Positions 38,766-62,721 of a DNA stretch of 64,000 bases are shown here, one piece after another. Under the pieces are notes generated by a model. That model ran no database searches and was not told the DNA's origin. It was given only the letters and a program-made list of their open reading frames with translations. Each line of letters starts with the position of its first letter. Positions within the stretch are counted from its first letter, which is position 1. Source of the DNA: Natrinema halophilum (GTDB lineage Archaea > Halobacteriota > Halobacteria > Halobacteriales > Natrialbaceae); contig NZ_CP058601.1 in assembly GCF_013402815.2 (NCBI RefSeq), positions 1,550,001 to 1,614,000 on the forward strand, written 5' to 3'. The position numbers and the translations under genes were made by a program.

Positions 38766-39416
38766 ATGAGATACGCAAAATGCATCATCATCCCTGACGA
38801 CGAGGGATTACACCCCGTCGACAAGCGGATTGCAGACCATCCCGACGTCGACCGCGAACTTCTTCACAACGTGAATCTACTCGACGACGAGTCGATCGTG
38901 ACTATCTATCAATTCTCGGGTGACAGAACTGCTCTCGAACCGATTTTGCAGGATTCCTCGATGGTGTGTAAGTATCAGCTCTCGGGTGTGGACGACGTAA
39001 TACACGCCTACATTCACGTCAAGCCTTATGACAAACTCGTGGGCCTGCTGAGCATGCTCAAGAAATTCGAGTTCATATTCGATACGCCACTCGAATTTAC
39101 GCGACGCGGCGGATTGTGCGTGACGATGATTGGTGACGTCCAGAGCTTCCAGAACGCCATTCCGGACGTTCCTGATGGGATCAGGCTCAAGCTCCTCAAG
39201 ACGGGGAGTTACGAACCGAACACCGACAGGCTATACTCCCAGCTTACCGACCGCCAACAGGAGATCCTGCGGACTGCTGTCGATATGGGCTATTACAGTG
39301 TTCCGCGGGCCGTTACACACGACGATATCGGAACCGAACTCGGCTGTACCGGGGGTACTGTCGGTGGCCACCTGCGAAAAATAGAGTCGAAACTGCTCTC
39401 ACAGATCGTTCCGTAA
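38766..39416 (+). CDS. HTH_10 (bacterio-opsin-activator-like) transcriptional regulator
   Basis: The 216-aa protein has a C-terminal HTH_10 domain: LTDRQQEILRTAVDMGYYSV then PRAVTHDDIGTELGCTGGTV and GGHLRKIESKLL. The N-terminal 150 residues form an alpha/beta sensor-like domain seen in many haloarchaeal HTH_10 proteins. It is monocistronic, with an AT-rich promoter region upstream (about 38690-38750). The regulated genes are unknown. Confidence 0.87.
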   Translation: MRYAKCIIIPDDEGLHPVDKRIADHPDVDRELLHNVNLLDDESIVTIYQFSGDRTALEPILQDSSMVCKYQLSGVDDVIHAYIHVKPYDKLVGLLSMLKKFEFIFDTPLEFTRRGGLCVTMIGDVQSFQNAIPDVPDGIRLKLLKTGSYEPNTDRLYSQLTDRQQEILRTAVDMGYYSVPRAVTHDDIGTELGCTGGTVGGHLRKIESKLLSQIVP

Positions 39417-39812
39417 CCCGAATCCGGGGCGCCGGCAAAGACATCCGTGTTGTCGGTGACCTGGACGCCGACCAGACCACCGTAACGGGATCGACCGTCG
39501 CGAGAAGTTGGGTCCGAAACGGGCAGCATCTTTCGAGAAGAGGTGCGACGGGAACGCTCCGAGATTCACGTCTGGAAGGCGAAAACGGCGATGAGACGAA
39601 ATCGGTCGTCAGCGTTCGGCGAACGTGACTGAGTCGGCCGATGCTCCCGACTCACTCTCGGTTATCGTTCGCGCGACAGGAGAGTAACGGTTTACCGACA
39701 GTCACAGGCCCGGATATAAACCGCCGCGTATTACACGGATCAAACTGTTCGACAGTCATCGTCTCTACGCTAGCAACGGGACTCTCCGCCGGATGAGCCC
39801 GAACCGATAGCC
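39417..39812. other. Intergenic stretch
   Basis: No supported gene. A minus-strand frame here contains VGVQVTDNTDVFAGAPDSGY, which looks protein-like but has no family or coherent start, so I leave it unannotated. Confidence 0.4.
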
Positions 39813-40385
39813 ATGGCGACCAACGACATCGTTCAAGAAATCGACGCATCGCTGAGAAAATCGGATACCGAACTCGAGGCAGCCCTTCCGAAGTTGCTCC
39901 AGGATATCGAGGGTCATGTCGAGACGTTCGTGCGCGACTATCCCGAAACGTTCAACCGCTTGATCGAGCGGTCGAGAACGGTTGACATCGCGTCATTGGT
40001 CTCCGACGATCCCGTGATCGCCGCCACGTTTCAGGAACTGCTCTGGACCCGAACGAACGTTCTCGCCGAATCGTCACCCGAGGTCAAAGAGCACATCGAT
40101 GACGACATTACCGTCAACTTTGAGGCCAAAGATTGCCCGATAGCGGGCCATCTCGTCATCGATGGTGACGAGCAGACGATGTACGGCGACACGGGTCGAC
40201 TCGACGATCCGATGCTCGAGATTACCGGGCCCGCGACGACGCTTATCGGTCTGATCCTCGGGAACGTCCATCCGATTCGAGGGTACATACAACAGCAGTA
40301 CGATATGGACGGGCCGGTTCACATGGGGACTCGTCTCGCACCGATCATGAACTCGCTGTCCGAACAGGTGCCTGTAGAGAGATAG
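39813..40385 (+). CDS. SCP2 (sterol-carrier-like) domain protein
   Basis: The 190-aa protein has an N-terminal helical region (about 1-90) and a C-terminal SCP2-like lipid-binding fold: ITVNFEAKDCPIAGHLVIDG, then LEITGPATTLIGLILG and YIQQQYDMDGPVHMGTRLAP. SCP2 folds bind hydrophobic ligands in a tunnel. A larger relative is encoded at 41845-42570. No partner gene is obvious. Confidence 0.75.
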   Translation: MATNDIVQEIDASLRKSDTELEAALPKLLQDIEGHVETFVRDYPETFNRLIERSRTVDIASLVSDDPVIAATFQELLWTRTNVLAESSPEVKEHIDDDITVNFEAKDCPIAGHLVIDGDEQTMYGDTGRLDDPMLEITGPATTLIGLILGNVHPIRGYIQQQYDMDGPVHMGTRLAPIMNSLSEQVPVER

Positions 40386-40762: not shown

Positions 40763-40876
40763 ATGTTTTCGGCCCACATCCTGTACTAAATCATTTGCGC
40801 CTCGAACGTCGCATAAATTGTCTTTAACTTCACTGAAGCTTGGGTTCCGTATAAATAACCGTGGATGCGCGGACTA

Positions 40877-41596
40877 ATGATGAGGTGTGTCACCAATGTA
40901 CACTCTATGGCGAGTATGGCAGATTCCGACGCCGATCGTGGAGCCGAATCCGGTCGTGGAACCGATACCGGTAATAGAGCAGATACCGGTCGCCGAGCCG
41001 ACGTCCGTTCGGCCGTCGATACTGACGAGCCGCCGTACAGGGTCGCGTTGGCTCCACTCCTTGAGAAGATCGAATCGTTCGAAGTCGACGTTCGAGCTGT
41101 CGAAGCCGCTATTGCTGGCGGACTCGCCGGCGGGTTTCAAGCTGCGCTGGTCATCCAACTGTACGACACTGACGCGATTCGCCGGATTGGTGCAGTCGTC
41201 GGCGCACCGACTCTGGACGGCGGCTGGCTCGCGATGTTCGCACTCGGTGTGTTGTTCGCGCTGCCGTTTCACGGATACGTCTCGAGATCGATCGACGGGT
41301 TCGTCTCGAAGGTACTGGAACTCTCGAGGGCCAATGAGGCCCTTCGGACGATCCTCTCGGTCGTGCTCCGGCGATCGGCGCTGACGACGACGACGGTCGT
41401 ACTCGGTAACGGCTACGGGATCGCGATCGGTATTCTCTTCTCCGTGTTTCTGCTGCCGATGTGGTTGACGGTCGTGACGAACGTGGCGACGCCCGTGCCC
41501 GACGTCACGATCGCTGGCGTCGCTGGCGTCATCGCGTGGACGGTATACGGAGGGACGCTCGGGTTCGTATATGGCCTCATCATCGAATACCGATAG
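40877..41596 (+). CDS. Four-TM membrane protein with disordered N-terminus, unknown function
   Basis: The protein has an Asp/Gly/Arg-rich N-terminal stretch (about 15-45) and then four TM segments, including AAIAGGLAGGFQAALVIQL, WLAMFALGVLFALPF and ITIAGVAG-type helices near the end. A TATA-like CGTATAAATAACC at 40849-40861 lies about 25 bases before ATG 40877, which suggests a leaderless start. ATGs at 40907 and 40916 are alternatives. No family is recognised. Confidence 0.7.
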   Translation: MMRCVTNVHSMASMADSDADRGAESGRGTDTGNRADTGRRADVRSAVDTDEPPYRVALAPLLEKIESFEVDVRAVEAAIAGGLAGGFQAALVIQLYDTDAIRRIGAVVGAPTLDGGWLAMFALGVLFALPFHGYVSRSIDGFVSKVLELSRANEALRTILSVVLRRSALTTTTVVLGNGYGIAIGILFSVFLLPMWLTVVTNVATPVPDVTIAGVAGVIAWTVYGGTLGFVYGLIIEYR

Positions 41597-41679
41597 CATC
41601 GAGATGGGTCTCGAGCGGACTGAGACGGGAAACGACGGGGTTCCACCGCAACCGACGATCGGTGGCTGGCAGGTCGACC

Positions 41680-41840
41680 GGCGGTCAGCAGGTCGGTAAC
41701 GGGGAGGATCAATCGGCGGTCAGCAGATCGGTAACGGGGAGGATCAATCGGCGGTCAGCAGATCGGTAACGGGGAGGATCAATCGGCGGTCAGCAGATCG
41801 GTAACGGGGAGGATCAATCGGCGGTCAGCAGATCGGTAAC
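41680..41840. repeat. Tandem 35-bp repeat
   Basis: About four and a half head-to-tail copies of a 35-bp unit (GGCGGTCAGCAGATCGGTAA, then CGGGGAGGATCAATC) with no spacers. The last copy runs to the 3' end of the SCP2-protein gene. It is not a CRISPR array. Confidence 0.85.
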
Positions 41841-41844
41841 AGGA

Positions 41845-42570
41845 TCAGACGATGAATCGTGTGTCGATACCGGCTGAAATTTCGGTGAGAGCGACCGCAG
41901 CACCGGAATACTGCAGGATCGTCTGCACGTCGCCGTCGAGTTCGAAATCGCCGGCCATCAGCATGTCGATGACGTCGCCGTTGCCCCCAACGAGCGTCTT
42001 CCAGTGCTCGTAGTCCCCGACGAGTCGAAACCCATACTGTCGGTCATCGAGTTCGGTGACCGTATCGACGCCACGGCACTCGGTATCCGAGAGGTCCAGA
42101 TACGCGTAGATCGTCCCGTCGGGGGCGACGTTCTCCTCGAGTTGGGTTAGTAGATCGTCGAGAGAATCGGGGGCTGTCGAACGCAGTTCCGGCCACAGTC
42201 GGTCCGGGACATCCGCAAGGGTCGTCGTCAGGACCTCCTCGGTGACCCGTTCCTCGAGCGGTCCGGTCCGGGACTCGATGCGTTCGCGGACGTCTGGCGG
42301 GGCTTCTTCGAGGAGCGGTTCGAGTTGCGTTTCGGGCCGATCGAGAAGTTCTTTGATCGTCTCGACGATTTCCGGCGGCAGATCGGCGACCGCGTTGCTA
42401 TCGAATGGGACGTTCTCCATCTGAAAAACGAATGAGCCATCGAAGTCGACGCCCCACCCAGCAGATTTGTCGGCGTATTCGTCGCTCGCGTTGATCGCGT
42501 CTCGATACGCTTCGAGCCACGGTTCGGTCGGAAAATATCGTTCGATCGGTCGGAGTCGTTGCGTACTCAT
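41845..42570 (-). CDS. SCP2-like domain protein (larger paralogue)
   Basis: From the ATG at 42570 (MSTQRLRPIERYFPTEPWLE) the 241-aa protein ends with an SCP2-type fold: YAYLDLSDTECRGVDTVTEL, the FRLVGDYEHWKTLVGGNGDV strand/helix and MLMAGDFELDGDVQTILQYS. It shares fold and probable hydrophobic-ligand binding with the protein at 39813-40385. The longer open frame to 42825 adds an uncharacteristic N-terminus. Confidence 0.75.
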   Translation of the reverse strand: MSTQRLRPIERYFPTEPWLEAYRDAINASDEYADKSAGWGVDFDGSFVFQMENVPFDSNAVADLPPEIVETIKELLDRPETQLEPLLEEAPPDVRERIESRTGPLEERVTEEVLTTTLADVPDRLWPELRSTAPDSLDDLLTQLEENVAPDGTIYAYLDLSDTECRGVDTVTELDDRQYGFRLVGDYEHWKTLVGGNGDVIDMLMAGDFELDGDVQTILQYSGAAVALTEISAGIDTRFIV

Positions 42571-43279
42571 ATGTTGTGACCGGGCCTCGAAACCCGGCGT
42601 AGTACCGTGGTCGTTGGGAATTCTTGTCGTGGTTTCTCCGACCATGCACGGGGATTTATCAACGGAATCAACGGTATCAGCGATATCAGCGGTATTAGCG
42701 ATAGCAAAGAATATCTCGGAGTCGTTCGAGAGAGCGTCACTCTCTCGTGATCTGGTGAAACCGTTGGTTCGCTTGTTCACGGAAATATTCGATTTCCGGC
42801 CGACCCCGAGGCACTCGCCTTGCATATCTGTAGGTCCCGTGCTATTATGACGGGTCAGTCACGCGGCAAATCGCCGCACGGGCGACACGTTCCTCGACAC
42901 TGTTCCTCGTAGATCGGGGTAGGTAAGTCCACCGACGCCGTCTTGGACCGCCCGTAGGACGACTCAGAACGTGTGAGACGGTACTTACTCGAGCAGGAGA
43001 AGAGAAATCTACTTCGGAGCAAACCCGTAGTGTCGGCTTTCAAAGCGAGCGCCCCCTCTGTCGGCAGCATTGGTACCCGAACGCTGCCGAGGCGGATACA
43101 TGGAAACATGATTTCCACTTTTTCTCGTTCGAAACCACTCGAGATGGTCGAATCGACTCGAACTCACTCAAAATACGTCAGTTCTACGTCCGTTCCCGTC
43201 CTGATCTCCGTATTCGGCACGGGACCGAAAGTAGTGGGTACAATGCTCGTTCTATCGGATCAGATCGTCGGTCGATTGG
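42571..43279. other. Intergenic stretch, no supported gene
   Basis: Reading frames on both strands are short or of non-haloarchaeal composition. A run of related ATCAGCG(A/G)TAT words at 42665-42700 is the only pattern seen. Confidence 0.45.
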
Positions 43280-44476
43280 TTATTTCATTAATTCCTTCCA
43301 CACCTTGCTCTTGTATTCTTCTTTTTTCTTCTTTTTCCACCCTGAGTGCGACCACTTCTTCTTGTGGTGGCGCTTGTCCTTCCACCAGTCAAACGGACAG
43401 TCATCACCGCCGCCCGGTGGGTTGTCGCGGCCCGGTGGTTTATCGTGGCCTGGAGGACAGTCGCGGCCCGGCGGTTTGTCGTGGCCCGGTGGACAGTCAC
43501 GGCCCGGCGGTTTGTCGTCGCCCGGTGGACAATCGCCGCCGGGTGGACAGTCTCCGCCCGGTGGGTTGTCGCCGCCCGGTGGGTTGTCGCCGCCCGGTGG
43601 GTTGTCTCCGCCCGGTGGGTTGTCTCCGCCCGGTGGGTTGTCGCCGCCCGGTGGGTTGTCGCCGCCCGGTGGGTTGTTGCCGCCCGGTGGGTTGTCTCCG
43701 CCCGGTGGGTTGTCGCCGCCCGGTGGGTTGTCGCCGCCCGGTGGGTTGTCTCCGCCCGGTGGGTTGTCTCCGCCCGGTGGGTTGTCTCCGCCCGGTGGGT
43801 TGTCGCCGCCCGGTGGGTTGTCTCCGCCCGGTGGGTTGTCGCCGCCCGGTGGGTTGTCTCCGCCCGGTGGTTTATCGTCTCCCGGTGGACAGTCATCGCC
43901 CGGCGGCTTGTCGTCTCCTGGCGGCTTGTCGTCTCCTGGCGGCTTGTCGTCTCCTGGCGGCTTGTCGTCTCCTGGCGGCTTGTCGTCTCCTGGCGGCTTG
44001 TCGTCTCCTGGCGGCTTGTCGTCTCCTGGCGGCTTGTCGTCTCCTGGCGGCTTGTCGTCTCCTGGCGGCTTGTCATCGCCCGGCGGCTTGTCATCGCCCG
44101 GCGGACAGTCATCATCGCCCGGTGGGTTGTCGTCGCCCGGTGGGTTGTCGTCGCCCGGCGGATTGTCGTCGCCCGGCGGATTGTCGTCGCCCGGCGGATT
44201 GTCGTCGCCCGGCGGATTGTCGTCGCCCGGCGGATTGTCGTCGCCCGGTGGGTTGTCGTCGCCCGGCGGATTGTCGTCGCCTGGCGGGTTGTCGTCACCG
44301 TTGTCTGGACAGTCGTCGTCTTCAGAACAGTCCTTCTCTCTATCTCCATCGGAACAATCGTCGTCGGTTCCTTTGTCACCCCAGGAAGTCGCACTCCCTG
44401 CTCCTGAGAATCCCCCAGCAACTGATACGGTCAGTGCGCACCCCTTCAGAAATCGTCGTCTACTATTATCGGGCAT
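43280..44476 (-). CDS. Tat-exported protein made of about 50 PPGxxN/K hexapeptide repeats
   Basis: The 398-aa protein starts MPDNSRRRFLKGCALTVSVA, a twin-arginine signal. An acidic Cys-containing segment (DDDCSDGDREKDCSEDDDC) follows, then about 50 hexapeptides. These fall in blocks: NPPGDD first, then KPPGDD, then NPPGGD, with CPPGGD/CPPGHD/KPPGRD near the end. The C-terminus is strongly basic (WKKKKKEEYKSK). The 18-bp DNA units are homogenised block by block, showing repeat expansion. Gly occurs once per six residues in the main blocks, so it is not collagen. Probably an exported structural or adhesive protein. Confidence 0.8.
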   Translation of the reverse strand: MPDNSRRRFLKGCALTVSVAGGFSGAGSATSWGDKGTDDDCSDGDREKDCSEDDDCPDNGDDNPPGDDNPPGDDNPPGDDNPPGDDNPPGDDNPPGDDNPPGDDNPPGDDNPPGDDNPPGDDDCPPGDDKPPGDDKPPGDDKPPGDDKPPGDDKPPGDDKPPGDDKPPGDDKPPGDDKPPGDDKPPGDDKPPGDDCPPGDDKPPGGDNPPGGDNPPGGDNPPGGDNPPGGDNPPGGDNPPGGDNPPGGDNPPGGDNPPGGDNPPGGNNPPGGDNPPGGDNPPGGDNPPGGDNPPGGDNPPGGDNPPGGDCPPGGDCPPGDDKPPGRDCPPGHDKPPGRDCPPGHDKPPGRDNPPGGGDDCPFDWWKDKRHHKKKWSHSGWKKKKKEEYKSKVWKELMK

Positions 44477-44966
44477 ACACTCGAGCCATCGAAGAGGGGT
44501 ATTATACATATACGATCTCTAAAGAAAATTTATAATAAGTCCCAGGTAAATATACTGTTTCAAATGTAGAAAGGTCCTCCCCCTCTTCCTATTGTTTTTG
44601 GACAATGCTAATGGATATTAAGAAACGATCCATGCAGTAACTGTTTATGATTGGGCCCACCGAACGATACAGTTCACGTGTTTTTCGTCTGAAACTAACC
44701 AGAGAACATCGGGGATCTACTGTCTGTCATCTGGCGATCAACTGGACCAGTTCGATACGAATTTCGGTCGACTGTCGAATGACTCGCCCACGTTCGCTCA
44801 CCGCCAACGGTGCACTCGAAGATGGTAGCGGCTTTCGCGAAGCGACCGTCGTTCCGCGAACAAGTCGATCGACGGGCCAGCTATCCCGCGGAGAATCAGC
44901 ACCGTGGTCTCACGCCATCCATGACCGGAGATCACAGCCTCGAGTCATTCCCCCCAGAGCAGGCGA
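44477..44966. other. Intergenic stretch
   Basis: AT-rich promoter sequence for the repeat protein lies at 44500-44545 (ATTATACATATACG). No gene is supported further on. Confidence 0.45.
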
Positions 44967-47246: not shown

Positions 47247-47532
47247 GTCCTACGTGTGGCCCACGATAGCGATATACATTTTTCAAAGTCAGACGGAGAT
47301 CGGTGTCGGGTTCGTGGGAAGTCTCACTAGATTCTCTACCAAATTGTCTCGAGCAGCCGGCAGTATCAGCTAAAGGTGGACCGAAGATCGCTGGCGTCAC
47401 GTACGTCCGACAGGCTCCCAGCCAGTCGGCATCTCCATCGGCTTCGTTTCGAGTGCCCGTGTTCCGTTCGATCCCCAGACGAGGAGGACGCGATGCTCGT
47501 CGATGGAGAGCGCTGAACGCGTGCTACAAAGC

Positions 47533-47697: not shown

Positions 47698-48738
47698 TCA
47701 TAGTTCGAAGGACCTCCGTCGCTGCTCCGCTTTCTGTCGCTCGCTACGCCGATCGTAGTGTTTGTCCAGAATCTCTTCGCTCGCATTCATCCGATCAGAA
47801 ACCAACGAACGATCCTCATCAGAAAGTCGATGCGCGGTCACTCGACCACTCCGAACATCGTGGGGTGATCGTGACGACGGACACTGGCTCATCTTCGAGT
47901 AGTGAGTCCACTCGCAGTCATCCGGATCACGGTCGTGCGGACACGCCTCATCGCGCCAGCACGGCCGGGTCACTCTGTACAACGTATCTCGGCAGGCAGA
48001 CACCGAAACGCGGCCGTACTGGGTGGTCACAAGCGGCGACCGGCCGTGTTCGTCGACAATGTCGACTCGAGGACTGTCGATATAATCCTGCACCGTCTGC
48101 GCGACGTGCGCACTGATGACATTCCACCGCTCGCCTTTCTCTTTGTTTTTCAGCGGTGTATCAGTTTCAGGACGATGGACGAAGTGGACCGCCGGTCCAT
48201 CGGCGCGCGGACGTTCGCCCTCGAGGTCGAGATCGCCGAGGTCGAGCGCACGCAACTCGCCGACACGACACCCGGTATGCCAGAGCAATAGGACGGTTAA
48301 GTGTCGCCGGCTCGCGTACTCGTACCGTTCCAGGTAATCGACAATCGCGATCGCTCGGTCCGGATCGAGGGTCGTTTTGCTTACGTCGACTCCATCAGTC
48401 CGAGGAAGGGGAACTTGATCATACAGGTCTTCGCGAACGGCGTCGATCTTTCCGCAGAAGCGGAGGAATGCACGCATCGTCGCCATGTCGCCGCGAAGTG
48501 TGACCGATGCGAGTGCGTCACCGGAGTATCTGCCTTCGCGACGCCATATACGATAGGCGTACATATCGCGCCCGGACAATTCGTTCAGATTGGCGACACC
48601 TTCCTCGTCGCACCACATGATGAATGCACGCAGGCGATAGTCCTGAGCCTCCATCGTGTTCTCGGCGGCATCGTCACGCGCCTCGAGATACAGATTGACA
48701 GCCTCCAGTGGGGTGATCGGCTCGAGATTATCGCTCAA
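47698..48738 (-). CDS. Tyrosine recombinase (SNJ2-type integrase)
   Basis: From a TTG at 48738 (overlapping the stop of the zinc protein, TTGA) the 346-aa protein has catalytic GCRVGELRALDL (Arg 158), HDVRSG (His 293, Arg 296) and DKHYDRR (Tyr 328). Upstream is an N-terminal SAM-like DNA-binding region. A longer frame from 48789 would overlap the small gene. Two overlapping small genes precede it, the arrangement I recall for the pleolipovirus SNJ2 integrase operon, whose small proteins modulate integration. Its gene end lies 56 bases from the left direct repeat. Confidence 0.88.
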   Translation of the reverse strand: MSDNLEPITPLEAVNLYLEARDDAAENTMEAQDYRLRAFIMWCDEEGVANLNELSGRDMYAYRIWRREGRYSGDALASVTLRGDMATMRAFLRFCGKIDAVREDLYDQVPLPRTDGVDVSKTTLDPDRAIAIVDYLERYEYASRRHLTVLLLWHTGCRVGELRALDLGDLDLEGERPRADGPAVHFVHRPETDTPLKNKEKGERWNVISAHVAQTVQDYIDSPRVDIVDEHGRSPLVTTQYGRVSVSACRDTLYRVTRPCWRDEACPHDRDPDDCEWTHYSKMSQCPSSRSPHDVRSGRVTAHRLSDEDRSLVSDRMNASEEILDKHYDRRSERQKAEQRRRSFEL

Positions 48739-48836
48739 ACTTGACCACCTCCACACTTCGACCAGCCGCATTCCAGGCAGAACGGGCACCCGCCGGACGG
48801 GTGGACACGGCCGCTGCCGCAGTCAGGACACTTCAT
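48735..48836 (-). CDS. 33-aa zinc-finger protein of the integrase operon
   Basis: The frame reads MKCPDCGSGRVHPSGGCPFC then LECGWSKCGGGQV and stops at 48735-48737. Three CxxC-type pairs allow a zinc ribbon. Its ATG overlaps the preceding stop (ATGA) and its stop overlaps the TTG start of the integrase, so all three genes are coupled. By analogy with SNJ2 it may direct integration or excision. Confidence 0.75.
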   Translation of the reverse strand: MKCPDCGSGRVHPSGGCPFCLECGWSKCGGGQV

Positions 48837-60956: not shown

Positions 60957-61265
60957 TCAACGAACGTCGAGGCCGAGAAGGTCGTTCTGGACGCGTTCAC
61001 CGACCTGAATCTCGCAGTCTGCTCGCGGATACGAACAACACAGGAGCACGTAGCCGTCGGTCTCCTGTTCGGTGGTGAGGGCTGTCCCCTCGCTTCCGTC
61101 GAGGTCCCCCTCAAGCAATTTGCCGGTACATCGCCGACACATTCCGTTTCGACAGGAGTGTGGAAGATCGAGACCGGCTCTCATCGCCGCATCGAGGACG
61201 TACTCGTCCGGGGAGACGGCGACGGTTTTCGTTTCGTTCTCGAGGTGAAACGTGACGTCGTACAT
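60957..61265 (-). CDS. Plant-type 2Fe-2S ferredoxin, third gene of the R2lox operon
   Basis: The 102-aa protein has the plant-type cluster motif HSCRNGMCRRC (Cys 38, 43, 46) and a Cys pair CC at 76-77, one of which is the fourth ligand. It starts directly after the stop of the 95-aa protein, so it is co-translated with the R2lox-like oxidase. It would hand single electrons to the diiron site, an inference from linkage. It differs from the large haloarchaeal 2Fe-2S ferredoxins by lacking the acidic insertion. Confidence 0.9.
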   Translation of the reverse strand: MYDVTFHLENETKTVAVSPDEYVLDAAMRAGLDLPHSCRNGMCRRCTGKLLEGDLDGSEGTALTTEQETDGYVLLCCSYPRADCEIQVGERVQNDLLGLDVR

Positions 61266-61553
61266 CTACACTCGCTGGCGCAGTTTGTACAGTTCCAGTG
61301 CCTCGAGGCGTGGGTCGCCGGTTCCGACTTCGTCGTGTTCGAGGCTGGCTCCGCTGATACTCTCGTTGAACGACGTGCTGACGCCGTCGGTTTCGAACGT
61401 CGAATCCATGATGTACGCGACGTTCTCGCGGATTTCCTCGACGCTCTGGTCGAGTTCCGCGGCAGCGTCCTCGATCGCATCGGCGACGTCATCTTCCGAG
61501 GCGGTAAACGCCGCCCCGCGGGACAACTCGTTTAGTTCGGTGATGTCAGTCAT
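61266..61553 (-). CDS. 95-aa acidic protein, second gene of the R2lox operon
   Basis: From ATG 61553 (MTDITELNELSRGAAFTASE) the protein is acidic and helical, with no cysteine cluster or other motif. Its start overlaps the oxidase stop by eight bases and its stop abuts the ferredoxin start. It may be a scaffold, assembly or substrate-binding partner for the oxidase. No homologue is recognised. Confidence 0.75.
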   Translation of the reverse strand: MTDITELNELSRGAAFTASEDDVADAIEDAAAELDQSVEEIRENVAYIMDSTFETDGVSTSFNESISGASLEHDEVGTGDPRLEALELYKLRQRV

Positions 61554-62607
61554 CATCGCGACCTCCATCGGCCGCAGCGCCGCGTTTGCGATTGTACTGT
61601 TCCTGATACTTCCGTACCTCCTCGTCGATGTCTGTTTCCAGACACTCCTGATGGCGGTCGGCGACGATACCGATGATCTTGTGATGGTTGACCTCGAGGT
61701 CCAGCGCTTCGTTGAACTGGCCGTCGACGAGGTGGCCCACCCGTAACAGGAGGTCGTCGAAGCTGATCTCGAGCGGGTCGTCGACGGCCCCCGTGAACAT
61801 GTACCCGAAGTCGGCGATCGAACCCACGTTCTCGTAGAGAACGTCGATAATCGCCTGACTGACGCCCTGAAACTCCCGCCGGCCGGATCGTTCCTTTTCG
61901 ATCAGTTCGTTCAACGCTTCGACGCCGTGGGTGATGTGCCGTCCTTCGTCCGTGCTGATTAGCTTGAACCCGTGGTTCAAAAGCGACAGCGGTGCATTCT
62001 GCGAGAGTTTATTGATCGAATAGAACCCGCCGCGGGCGAGCAGCCCCTCCACGATCATGTGATACACCGTAAGCGCCTCGGCGATGTCGACGGGGTCCTG
62101 TGAGTGGGCCGCTCTCGCTGTTAACTGGCCCTGTCGGTCGAAAACGTCGCCGAGCCCAGTTGCTTGCACGATCGGAATCCGCGCTCCTCCGCGTTTCGGG
62201 TTCAGTTCCGCGAACGCGTCCTGTTCGCCCATCACCTCGTGCATGTACACGTCGAGAAACTGTGTGTGCTTGTGTTCGGTCAGCGTAAACATCGTCATAT
62301 ACATCTCCATTTCTTCGTTGTCGTCGAAACACGGCGCGCCAACGATTCGCTGGAGATGATGGCTCGCGTCCTCGCCGACAGCAAACTCTCCGTCGAGAAA
62401 TCCGGATAACAGGTATCGGATCTGTTTTCGCTCGCCAGGCTCGAGCGATGCCCAGATCTCGCGATCCTCCTCGAAACCGACCTCGTCGAACAGTTTCTCG
62501 ACGTCCCACGTCCCGAGTTCGACACCTTTCTGAAAGAGATCGTACCATTTGCTCGTGGTGTCGATCCGTTCGGCCTGCCAGTTCGTACCCGTGGTGTCTT
62601 GTAACAC
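61546..62607 (-). CDS. R2-like ligand-binding oxidase (R2lox-type diiron protein)
   Basis: From GTG 62607 the 353-aa protein is of the ferritin-like R2 superfamily. Ligand pattern: Glu 74 (LDGEFAVGED), Glu 111xxHis 114 (TEHKHTQF), Glu 187 (YHMIVEGLLA), Glu 221xxHis 224 (DEGRHITHG). Val 77 (three after Glu 74) and Tyr 182 (five before Glu 187) are at the positions of the Val-Tyr cross-link pair described for R2lox. No R1 partner is adjacent, which argues against ribonucleotide reductase. The physiological reaction of R2lox proteins is not known. Confidence 0.85.
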   Translation of the reverse strand: MLQDTTGTNWQAERIDTTSKWYDLFQKGVELGTWDVEKLFDEVGFEEDREIWASLEPGERKQIRYLLSGFLDGEFAVGEDASHHLQRIVGAPCFDDNEEMEMYMTMFTLTEHKHTQFLDVYMHEVMGEQDAFAELNPKRGGARIPIVQATGLGDVFDRQGQLTARAAHSQDPVDIAEALTVYHMIVEGLLARGGFYSINKLSQNAPLSLLNHGFKLISTDEGRHITHGVEALNELIEKERSGRREFQGVSQAIIDVLYENVGSIADFGYMFTGAVDDPLEISFDDLLLRVGHLVDGQFNEALDLEVNHHKIIGIVADRHQECLETDIDEEVRKYQEQYNRKRGAAADGGRDDD

Positions 62608-62721
62608 ACTAGTCGTTCGCGAGTACTACCAATGAGCGTACCTGCTCGAATAACCGGTACTTAAAGACGAACGGCGTGACTCGAGTCGTCGGCAGCCACC
62701 TTCTGCCGTGGACGATCCGAG

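Follow-up and report, generated by a model that had tools for sequence, protein, structure and literature searches.

A divergent R2lox-type protein encoded with a small helical partner and a ferredoxin: a putative multicomponent oxygenase of haloarchaea

Within a 64,000-nucleotide stretch of the Natrinema halophilum genome (contig NZ_CP058601.1, positions 1,550,001 to 1,614,000; hereafter the window), we describe an operon that encodes an R2lox-type protein of a divergent haloarchaeal subfamily, a 95-aa protein of no recognized family and a plant-type ferredoxin. On balance, we slightly favor the view that these proteins form a multicomponent R2lox-type monooxygenase, which would be fed by the ferredoxin, act on a long-chain lipid or hydrocarbon and require the small protein as an essential subunit or effector. 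Sequence and structural models show the gene set, its residues, fold, linkage and constraint, and from these we infer the oxygenase activity.

Results

All three genes lie on the reverse strand, with the start of the 95-aa reading frame overlapping the stop of the R2 gene by 8 bases and the ferredoxin gene abutting in turn (Table 1). Pairwise dN/dS values against five relatives (R2, 0.10-0.19; small protein, 0.12-0.25; ferredoxin, 0.19-0.28) mark them as real genes under purifying selection, and the retention of gene order across many haloarchaeal genera excludes chance. The operon and its coordinates, first proposed in a sequence-only reading of the window, are thus correct. A putative promoter block upstream combines a haloarchaeal TATA-like element with some 25 conserved bases, and is common to Natrinema and Natrialba relatives.

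Table 1 Features of the R2lox-type operon and of the linked lipid module in the window
Feature	Coordinates	Strand	Remarks
R2lox-type dinuclear-metal oxidase/oxygenase	61546..62607	-	353 aa, GTG start
Small all-helical partner (model)	61266..61553	-	95 aa; invariant VAYI-DS, NE and C-terminal DPRLEAL motifs
Plant-type [2Fe-2S] ferredoxin	60957..61265	-	102 aa; cluster cysteines C38, C43, C46, C76
Conserved promoter-like block preceding the operon	62630..62666	-	TTTAAG...CCGGTTATTCGAGC-GGTACGCTCATTG; sequence comparison only
SCP2-like (sterol-carrier-like lipid-binding) protein, c0	41845..42570	-	full-length copy near R2 at 28 of 35 loci
Second SCP2-like family of the linked lipid module, c5	39798..40379	+	
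HVO_0513_N/HTH_10 (Bat-like) regulator, c7	38766..39416	+	recurrent near the R2 operon
Predicted membrane protein, c6	40865..41596	+	linked to the locus in Natrialbaceae

The sequence-only reading had assigned six metal ligands to the 353-aa protein, together with a Val77-Tyr182 pair described as specific to R2lox. All six R2lox ligands (E74, E111, H114, E187, E221 and H224) do occupy these positions and, like V77 and Y182, are invariant in an alignment of 18 diverse relatives; the first is Glu, as against the Asp of class I ribonucleotide reductase (RNR) R2. The six ligands recur in R2lox of Mycobacterium and Geobacillus and in ordinary haloarchaeal R2lox, as does the Val/Tyr pair, which is not present in the aligned E. 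coli NrdB or NrdF and is a candidate for the ether cross-link of R2lox. Equally invariant among the 18 relatives is A191 (E187+4), the equivalent of GkR2loxI A171, a residue lining the fatty-acid tunnel that is always alanine in R2lox, where RNR R2 has phenylalanine (PMC6399176); the phenylalanine is that paper's assignment, the E. coli NrdB row of our alignment being misaligned near residue 191. The radical tyrosine is absent: residue 118 is Leu here, and relatives have Phe, Val or Ile at this position but in no case Tyr. This Leu differs from the Phe that is the usual hallmark of R2lox at the radical-tyrosine site (PMC5134839).

Among NCBIfam models, the best for the 353-aa protein are those of R2lox (NF006200, 98.7 bits), with RNR models far behind. 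The score does not reach the NF006200 cut-off of 194; the ordinary haloarchaeal R2lox tested also fall under the NCBIfam R2lox cut-off, at 119-152 bits, so that the cut-off delimits subgroups narrower than the R2lox family, and we file the 353-aa protein as an R2lox-type new subfamily outside those equivalogs. Its AlphaFold model is confident (pLDDT 86), and the best 27 PDB structural matches of this model are all R2lox (Z 27.4-30.5), RNR R2 following at 26.5 and below. A phylogeny, the check proposed in the earlier reading for telling R2lox from class I RNR R2, agrees with the structure: the R2 proteins of the trio group with R2lox, and NrdB/NrdF fall outside this group. As for RNR large subunits, NrdJ alone was detected in the genome, a protein of the adenosylcobalamin-dependent class II (TIGR02504, 717 bits; cut-off 400); no class I large subunit was found there.

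Similar proteins are frequently annotated as small subunits of class I RNR, an identity for which the common fold and a Pfam Ribonuc_red_sm match above cut-off (43.9 bits) can be cited. We regard it as very improbable here and reject it, given the missing radical tyrosine, the Glu first ligand, the Val/Tyr pair, the open-tunnel alanine, the ranking of fold matches, the tree and the presence of NrdJ alone. Because residues, fold matches and the sole detected large subunit point the same way, the 353-aa protein is R2lox-type and not an RNR subunit.

In calling the protein R2lox-like, the sequence-only reading was right as to type, but this is not a typical R2lox: profile scores and a long-branch tree place it in a deep haloarchaeal subfamily that is well separated from ordinary R2lox. 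Complete members score 510-640 bits against the subfamily profile and a contig-truncated member 385, with all other R2lox at about 103 or less. In the tree, a long branch (2.25 changes per site; support 82/99) sets the 21 subfamily sequences apart; it falls among R2lox with NrdB/NrdF outside, the long branches making its exact placement within R2lox unsure. The genome also carries three ordinary R2lox genes, none of which has the small protein or a ferredoxin of this type beside it.

The 95-aa protein has no significant match in Pfam, NCBIfam or PDB. Its low-confidence model (pLDDT 61.5) arranges three main helices about a disordered loop, and a fold search with this query, uninformative at such confidence, returned no significant match. 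The gene is adjacent to and downstream of all 35 distinct subfamily R2 genes, and the 15 of 242 haloarchaeal genomes that encode it are exactly the 15 with a subfamily R2. Across a wider sample of the phylum (295 genomes, haloarchaea included) it occurred in the genus of the window only, and viral contigs yielded no relative. A mirror-tree comparison of R2 and the small protein gave r = 0.94, which none of 2000 permutations equaled. Hence the novel, conserved-looking partner of the earlier reading holds up as a protein without known family match, under constraint and constant in its position beside R2. An MmoB-type coupling protein was considered and rejected, there being no MmoB/DmpM Pfam match (E<=1) and an all-helical, if low-confidence, model.

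The ferredoxin passes the plant-type [2Fe-2S] model TIGR02008 (91 bits against a cut-off of 81.15), and its four cluster cysteines are invariant in an alignment of relatives; a YfaE-type ferredoxin was rejected, the YfaE model giving 26 bits against a cut-off of 75. Its gene follows in 32 of the 35 subfamily loci. The survey of genome neighborhoods suggested with the original proposal thus finds that the trio recurs, and the description of the ferredoxin as plant-type and dedicated to the operon is upheld. The three loci without it imply either that the ferredoxin can be substituted or that those copies function in another way. The mirror-tree correlation between R2 and ferredoxin was 0.87 (0 of 2000 permutations as high); a tree of this short protein did not resolve a single clade of trio ferredoxins, and so we do not argue that these ferredoxins share an exclusive ancestry. 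In the window's ferredoxin, cluster cysteines two and three stand in a CRRC motif (61125-61155), where aligned relatives have CTSC, CTTC or CTAC.

The partner set of the sequence-only reading was right to include the small protein and the ferredoxin but missed a usual fourth member, the SCP2-like protein. A full-length copy lies within 2.5 kb of R2 in 28 of 35 loci, and a 29th locus holds a weak 19.5-bit match. Against PF02036 (gathering score 21.3), the orthologue in one relative (L087) scores 35.5 bits and the window copy 17.5. In a sample of 234 genomes, all 14 trio genomes and one other (G175) encode the full-length protein; such counts across haloarchaeal genomes come from related genomes and are not independent events.

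In most relatives the operon has as neighbors both SCP2-like families, an acyl-CoA dehydrogenase (c4) and the Bat-like regulator. Among 40 stretches surveyed (some duplicates), the acyl-CoA dehydrogenase was present in 20 and the second SCP2-like family in 18; an aldehyde and alcohol dehydrogenase pair (c8, c9) also recurs near the operon, and an AMP ligase (c10) sometimes does. In locus L082, an ordinary haloarchaeal R2lox gene is followed directly by the same dehydrogenase pair. Genome G175 keeps the lipid module, the trio having been lost or never present. Modules of AMP ligase, acyl-CoA dehydrogenase and SCP2-like genes without the R2 operon were observed in G175 (L113) and in a further genome, G156 (L114), so that the link between trio and lipid module is strong but not exclusive.

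Within the window, c0, c5, c6 and c7 lie at 38.8-42.6 kb, with the SCP2-like gene c0 18.7 kb from R2. The segment from 52.3 to 62.6 kb is colinear with genomes G005 and G322, in which c0, c6 and c7 adjoin R2; in the window these genes are flipped and distant. An inversion appears to have moved the SCP2-like gene away from R2, the arrangement being that which such an event with one breakpoint directly ahead of the R2 promoter would produce. When 38766-62700 is compared with related loci (L098-L101), one breakpoint falls immediately ahead of this promoter and the other near 42.8-47.7 kb.

Several repeats were seen in this region. An 18-base tandem array (43320-44150; 41 register positions, encoding a six-residue protein repeat in the plus-strand reading frame 42973-44535) adjoins one of the breakpoints. 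Tandem 35-base repeats, in about five to six copies, occupy 41639-41848 directly downstream of the SCP2-like gene. An integrase-like gene (47698-48789) and a 129-base direct repeat, present at 47515 and 51964 in copies that are 91% identical, give the segment 47515-52092 the look of a small mobile element.

Discussion

In the multicomponent monooxygenase that we slightly favor, the oxygenase core would be an R2lox-type dinuclear helical bundle, probably Mn/Fe or Fe/Fe, to which reduced ferredoxin would deliver two electrons per turnover. Haloarchaeal [2Fe-2S] ferredoxins are themselves reduced by 2-oxoacid:ferredoxin oxidoreductases. The small protein could be a stable subunit or an effector, docking on the oxygenase, the ferredoxin or both. 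Activation of O2 at the metal pair would lead to hydroxylation of a long-chain aliphatic or other lipid lying in the tunnel, for which the SCP2-like carrier may present the substrate or remove the product. Enzymes encoded by the recurrent neighbors of the operon (alcohol and aldehyde dehydrogenases, AMP ligase and acyl-CoA dehydrogenase) may then take up the product.

Known R2lox proteins bind a long-chain fatty acid at the metals and make the Tyr-Val link (PMC6399176). The sequence-only reading took the function of R2lox to be unknown, which no longer holds in full: passages of PMC10867098 report that GkR2loxI in crude lysate consumed alkanes and claim alkane hydroxylation. The same passages cite Kumar et al. 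2020 for up-regulation of an R2lox gene on hexadecane in a haloarchaeon.

The main rival to a ferredoxin-fed oxygenase is that the ferredoxin serves cofactor assembly or maintenance, as YfaE does for NrdB, reducing the site while the cross-linked cofactor is assembled or repaired, with the catalytic electrons of R2 coming from elsewhere or not being needed. In E. coli, yfaE encodes a [2Fe-2S] ferredoxin-like maintenance protein and directly follows nrdB, and the loci that do without a ferredoxin would fit such an auxiliary task; moreover, the Tyr-Val ether link of R2lox forms in a two-electron reaction with O2 (PMC6399176). We nevertheless judge this role unlikely, since the ferredoxin fails the YfaE model and passes the plant-type one, the linked lipid module speaks for turnover, and the ordinary R2lox loci that were searched have no adjacent ferredoxin of this type, which implies that R2lox assembly needs no linked one in general.

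The second rival concerns the substrate: instead of degrading alkanes or fatty acids, the enzyme may make or modify a cellular lipid, for instance a membrane-lipid chain, an isoprenoid, a carotenoid or a quinone. SCP2-like proteins bind varied lipids and haloarchaeal membranes are isoprenoid, both of which suit this reading, as does the occurrence of other haloarchaeal R2lox genes alongside those of acyl carrier protein and ketosynthase, in clusters of biosynthetic appearance. The acyl-CoA dehydrogenase, AMP ligase and alcohol/aldehyde dehydrogenase neighbors are of catabolic type, however, and we consider a biosynthetic role rather doubtful. The clusters in question lie on plasmids of Haloferax mediterranei and Natronorubrum bangense (L091 and L092) and involve another R2lox group, accompanied by quinone oxidoreductase, acyl carrier protein, ketosynthase, holo-ACP synthase and malonyltransferase genes; in Natronorubrum a 2Fe-2S protein precedes R2lox.

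R2lox has long served as a model for the study of Mn/Fe chemistry, with no substrate, reductant or partner yet agreed upon. The gene set described here names candidates for each: the ferredoxin as reductant, the small protein as obligate partner and, from the SCP2-like protein and acyl-CoA genes, a lipid-like compound as substrate class. Thus, the question of R2lox substrate and electron source becomes testable in genetically workable haloarchaea. R2lox itself and the idea that it oxidizes alkanes are already known; the titles, abstracts and passages of open-access literature that we consulted contained no account of the subfamily, its small partner, its ferredoxin or its SCP2-like neighbor. 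A broader proposal, which we advance more tentatively, is that of a new oxygenase class, in which an R2lox-family hydroxylase would be active only in complex with an undescribed helical effector and a dedicated ferredoxin, would receive its substrate from an SCP2-like carrier and would have been assembled independently of the methane and toluene monooxygenases. If true, this would be a multicomponent oxygenase with an origin separate from that of methane-monooxygenase-type enzymes.

Comparison with known systems

With the R2lox proteins of known structure (4HR0 GkR2loxI, 3EE4 MtR2lox, 7QBP SeR2lox and 6QRZ/7QBK SaR2lox I/II), the subfamily has in common the fold, the six ligands, the Val/Tyr pair, the tunnel alanine and the lack of a radical tyrosine. 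It differs in its low identity (about 22% over the structural alignments), in forming a separate clade on a long stem, and in the addition of an obligate small partner, a linked ferredoxin and an SCP2-like protein.

The alkane-degradation cluster of Geobacillus kaustophilus is comparable in that R2lox (GkR2loxI) lies beside alcohol/aldehyde dehydrogenase and beta-oxidation genes; the available passages of its description make no mention of a dedicated ferredoxin, and the authors credit host-cell cofactors with the supply of electrons (PMC10867098). The E. coli NrdB-YfaE pair likewise consists of an R2 protein followed by a [2Fe-2S] ferredoxin, but NrdB is a true RNR subunit encoded beside nrdA, and YfaE belongs to a different ferredoxin group.

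The soluble methane and toluene monooxygenases offer an analogy in mode of action, each combining a dinuclear oxygenase with an iron-sulfur electron carrier and a small protein. They nevertheless represent a different oxygenase family, with a fused reductase in place of the separate ferredoxin found here; and unlike their small protein, the 95-aa partner is all-helical in its model and without an MmoB/DmpM Pfam match.
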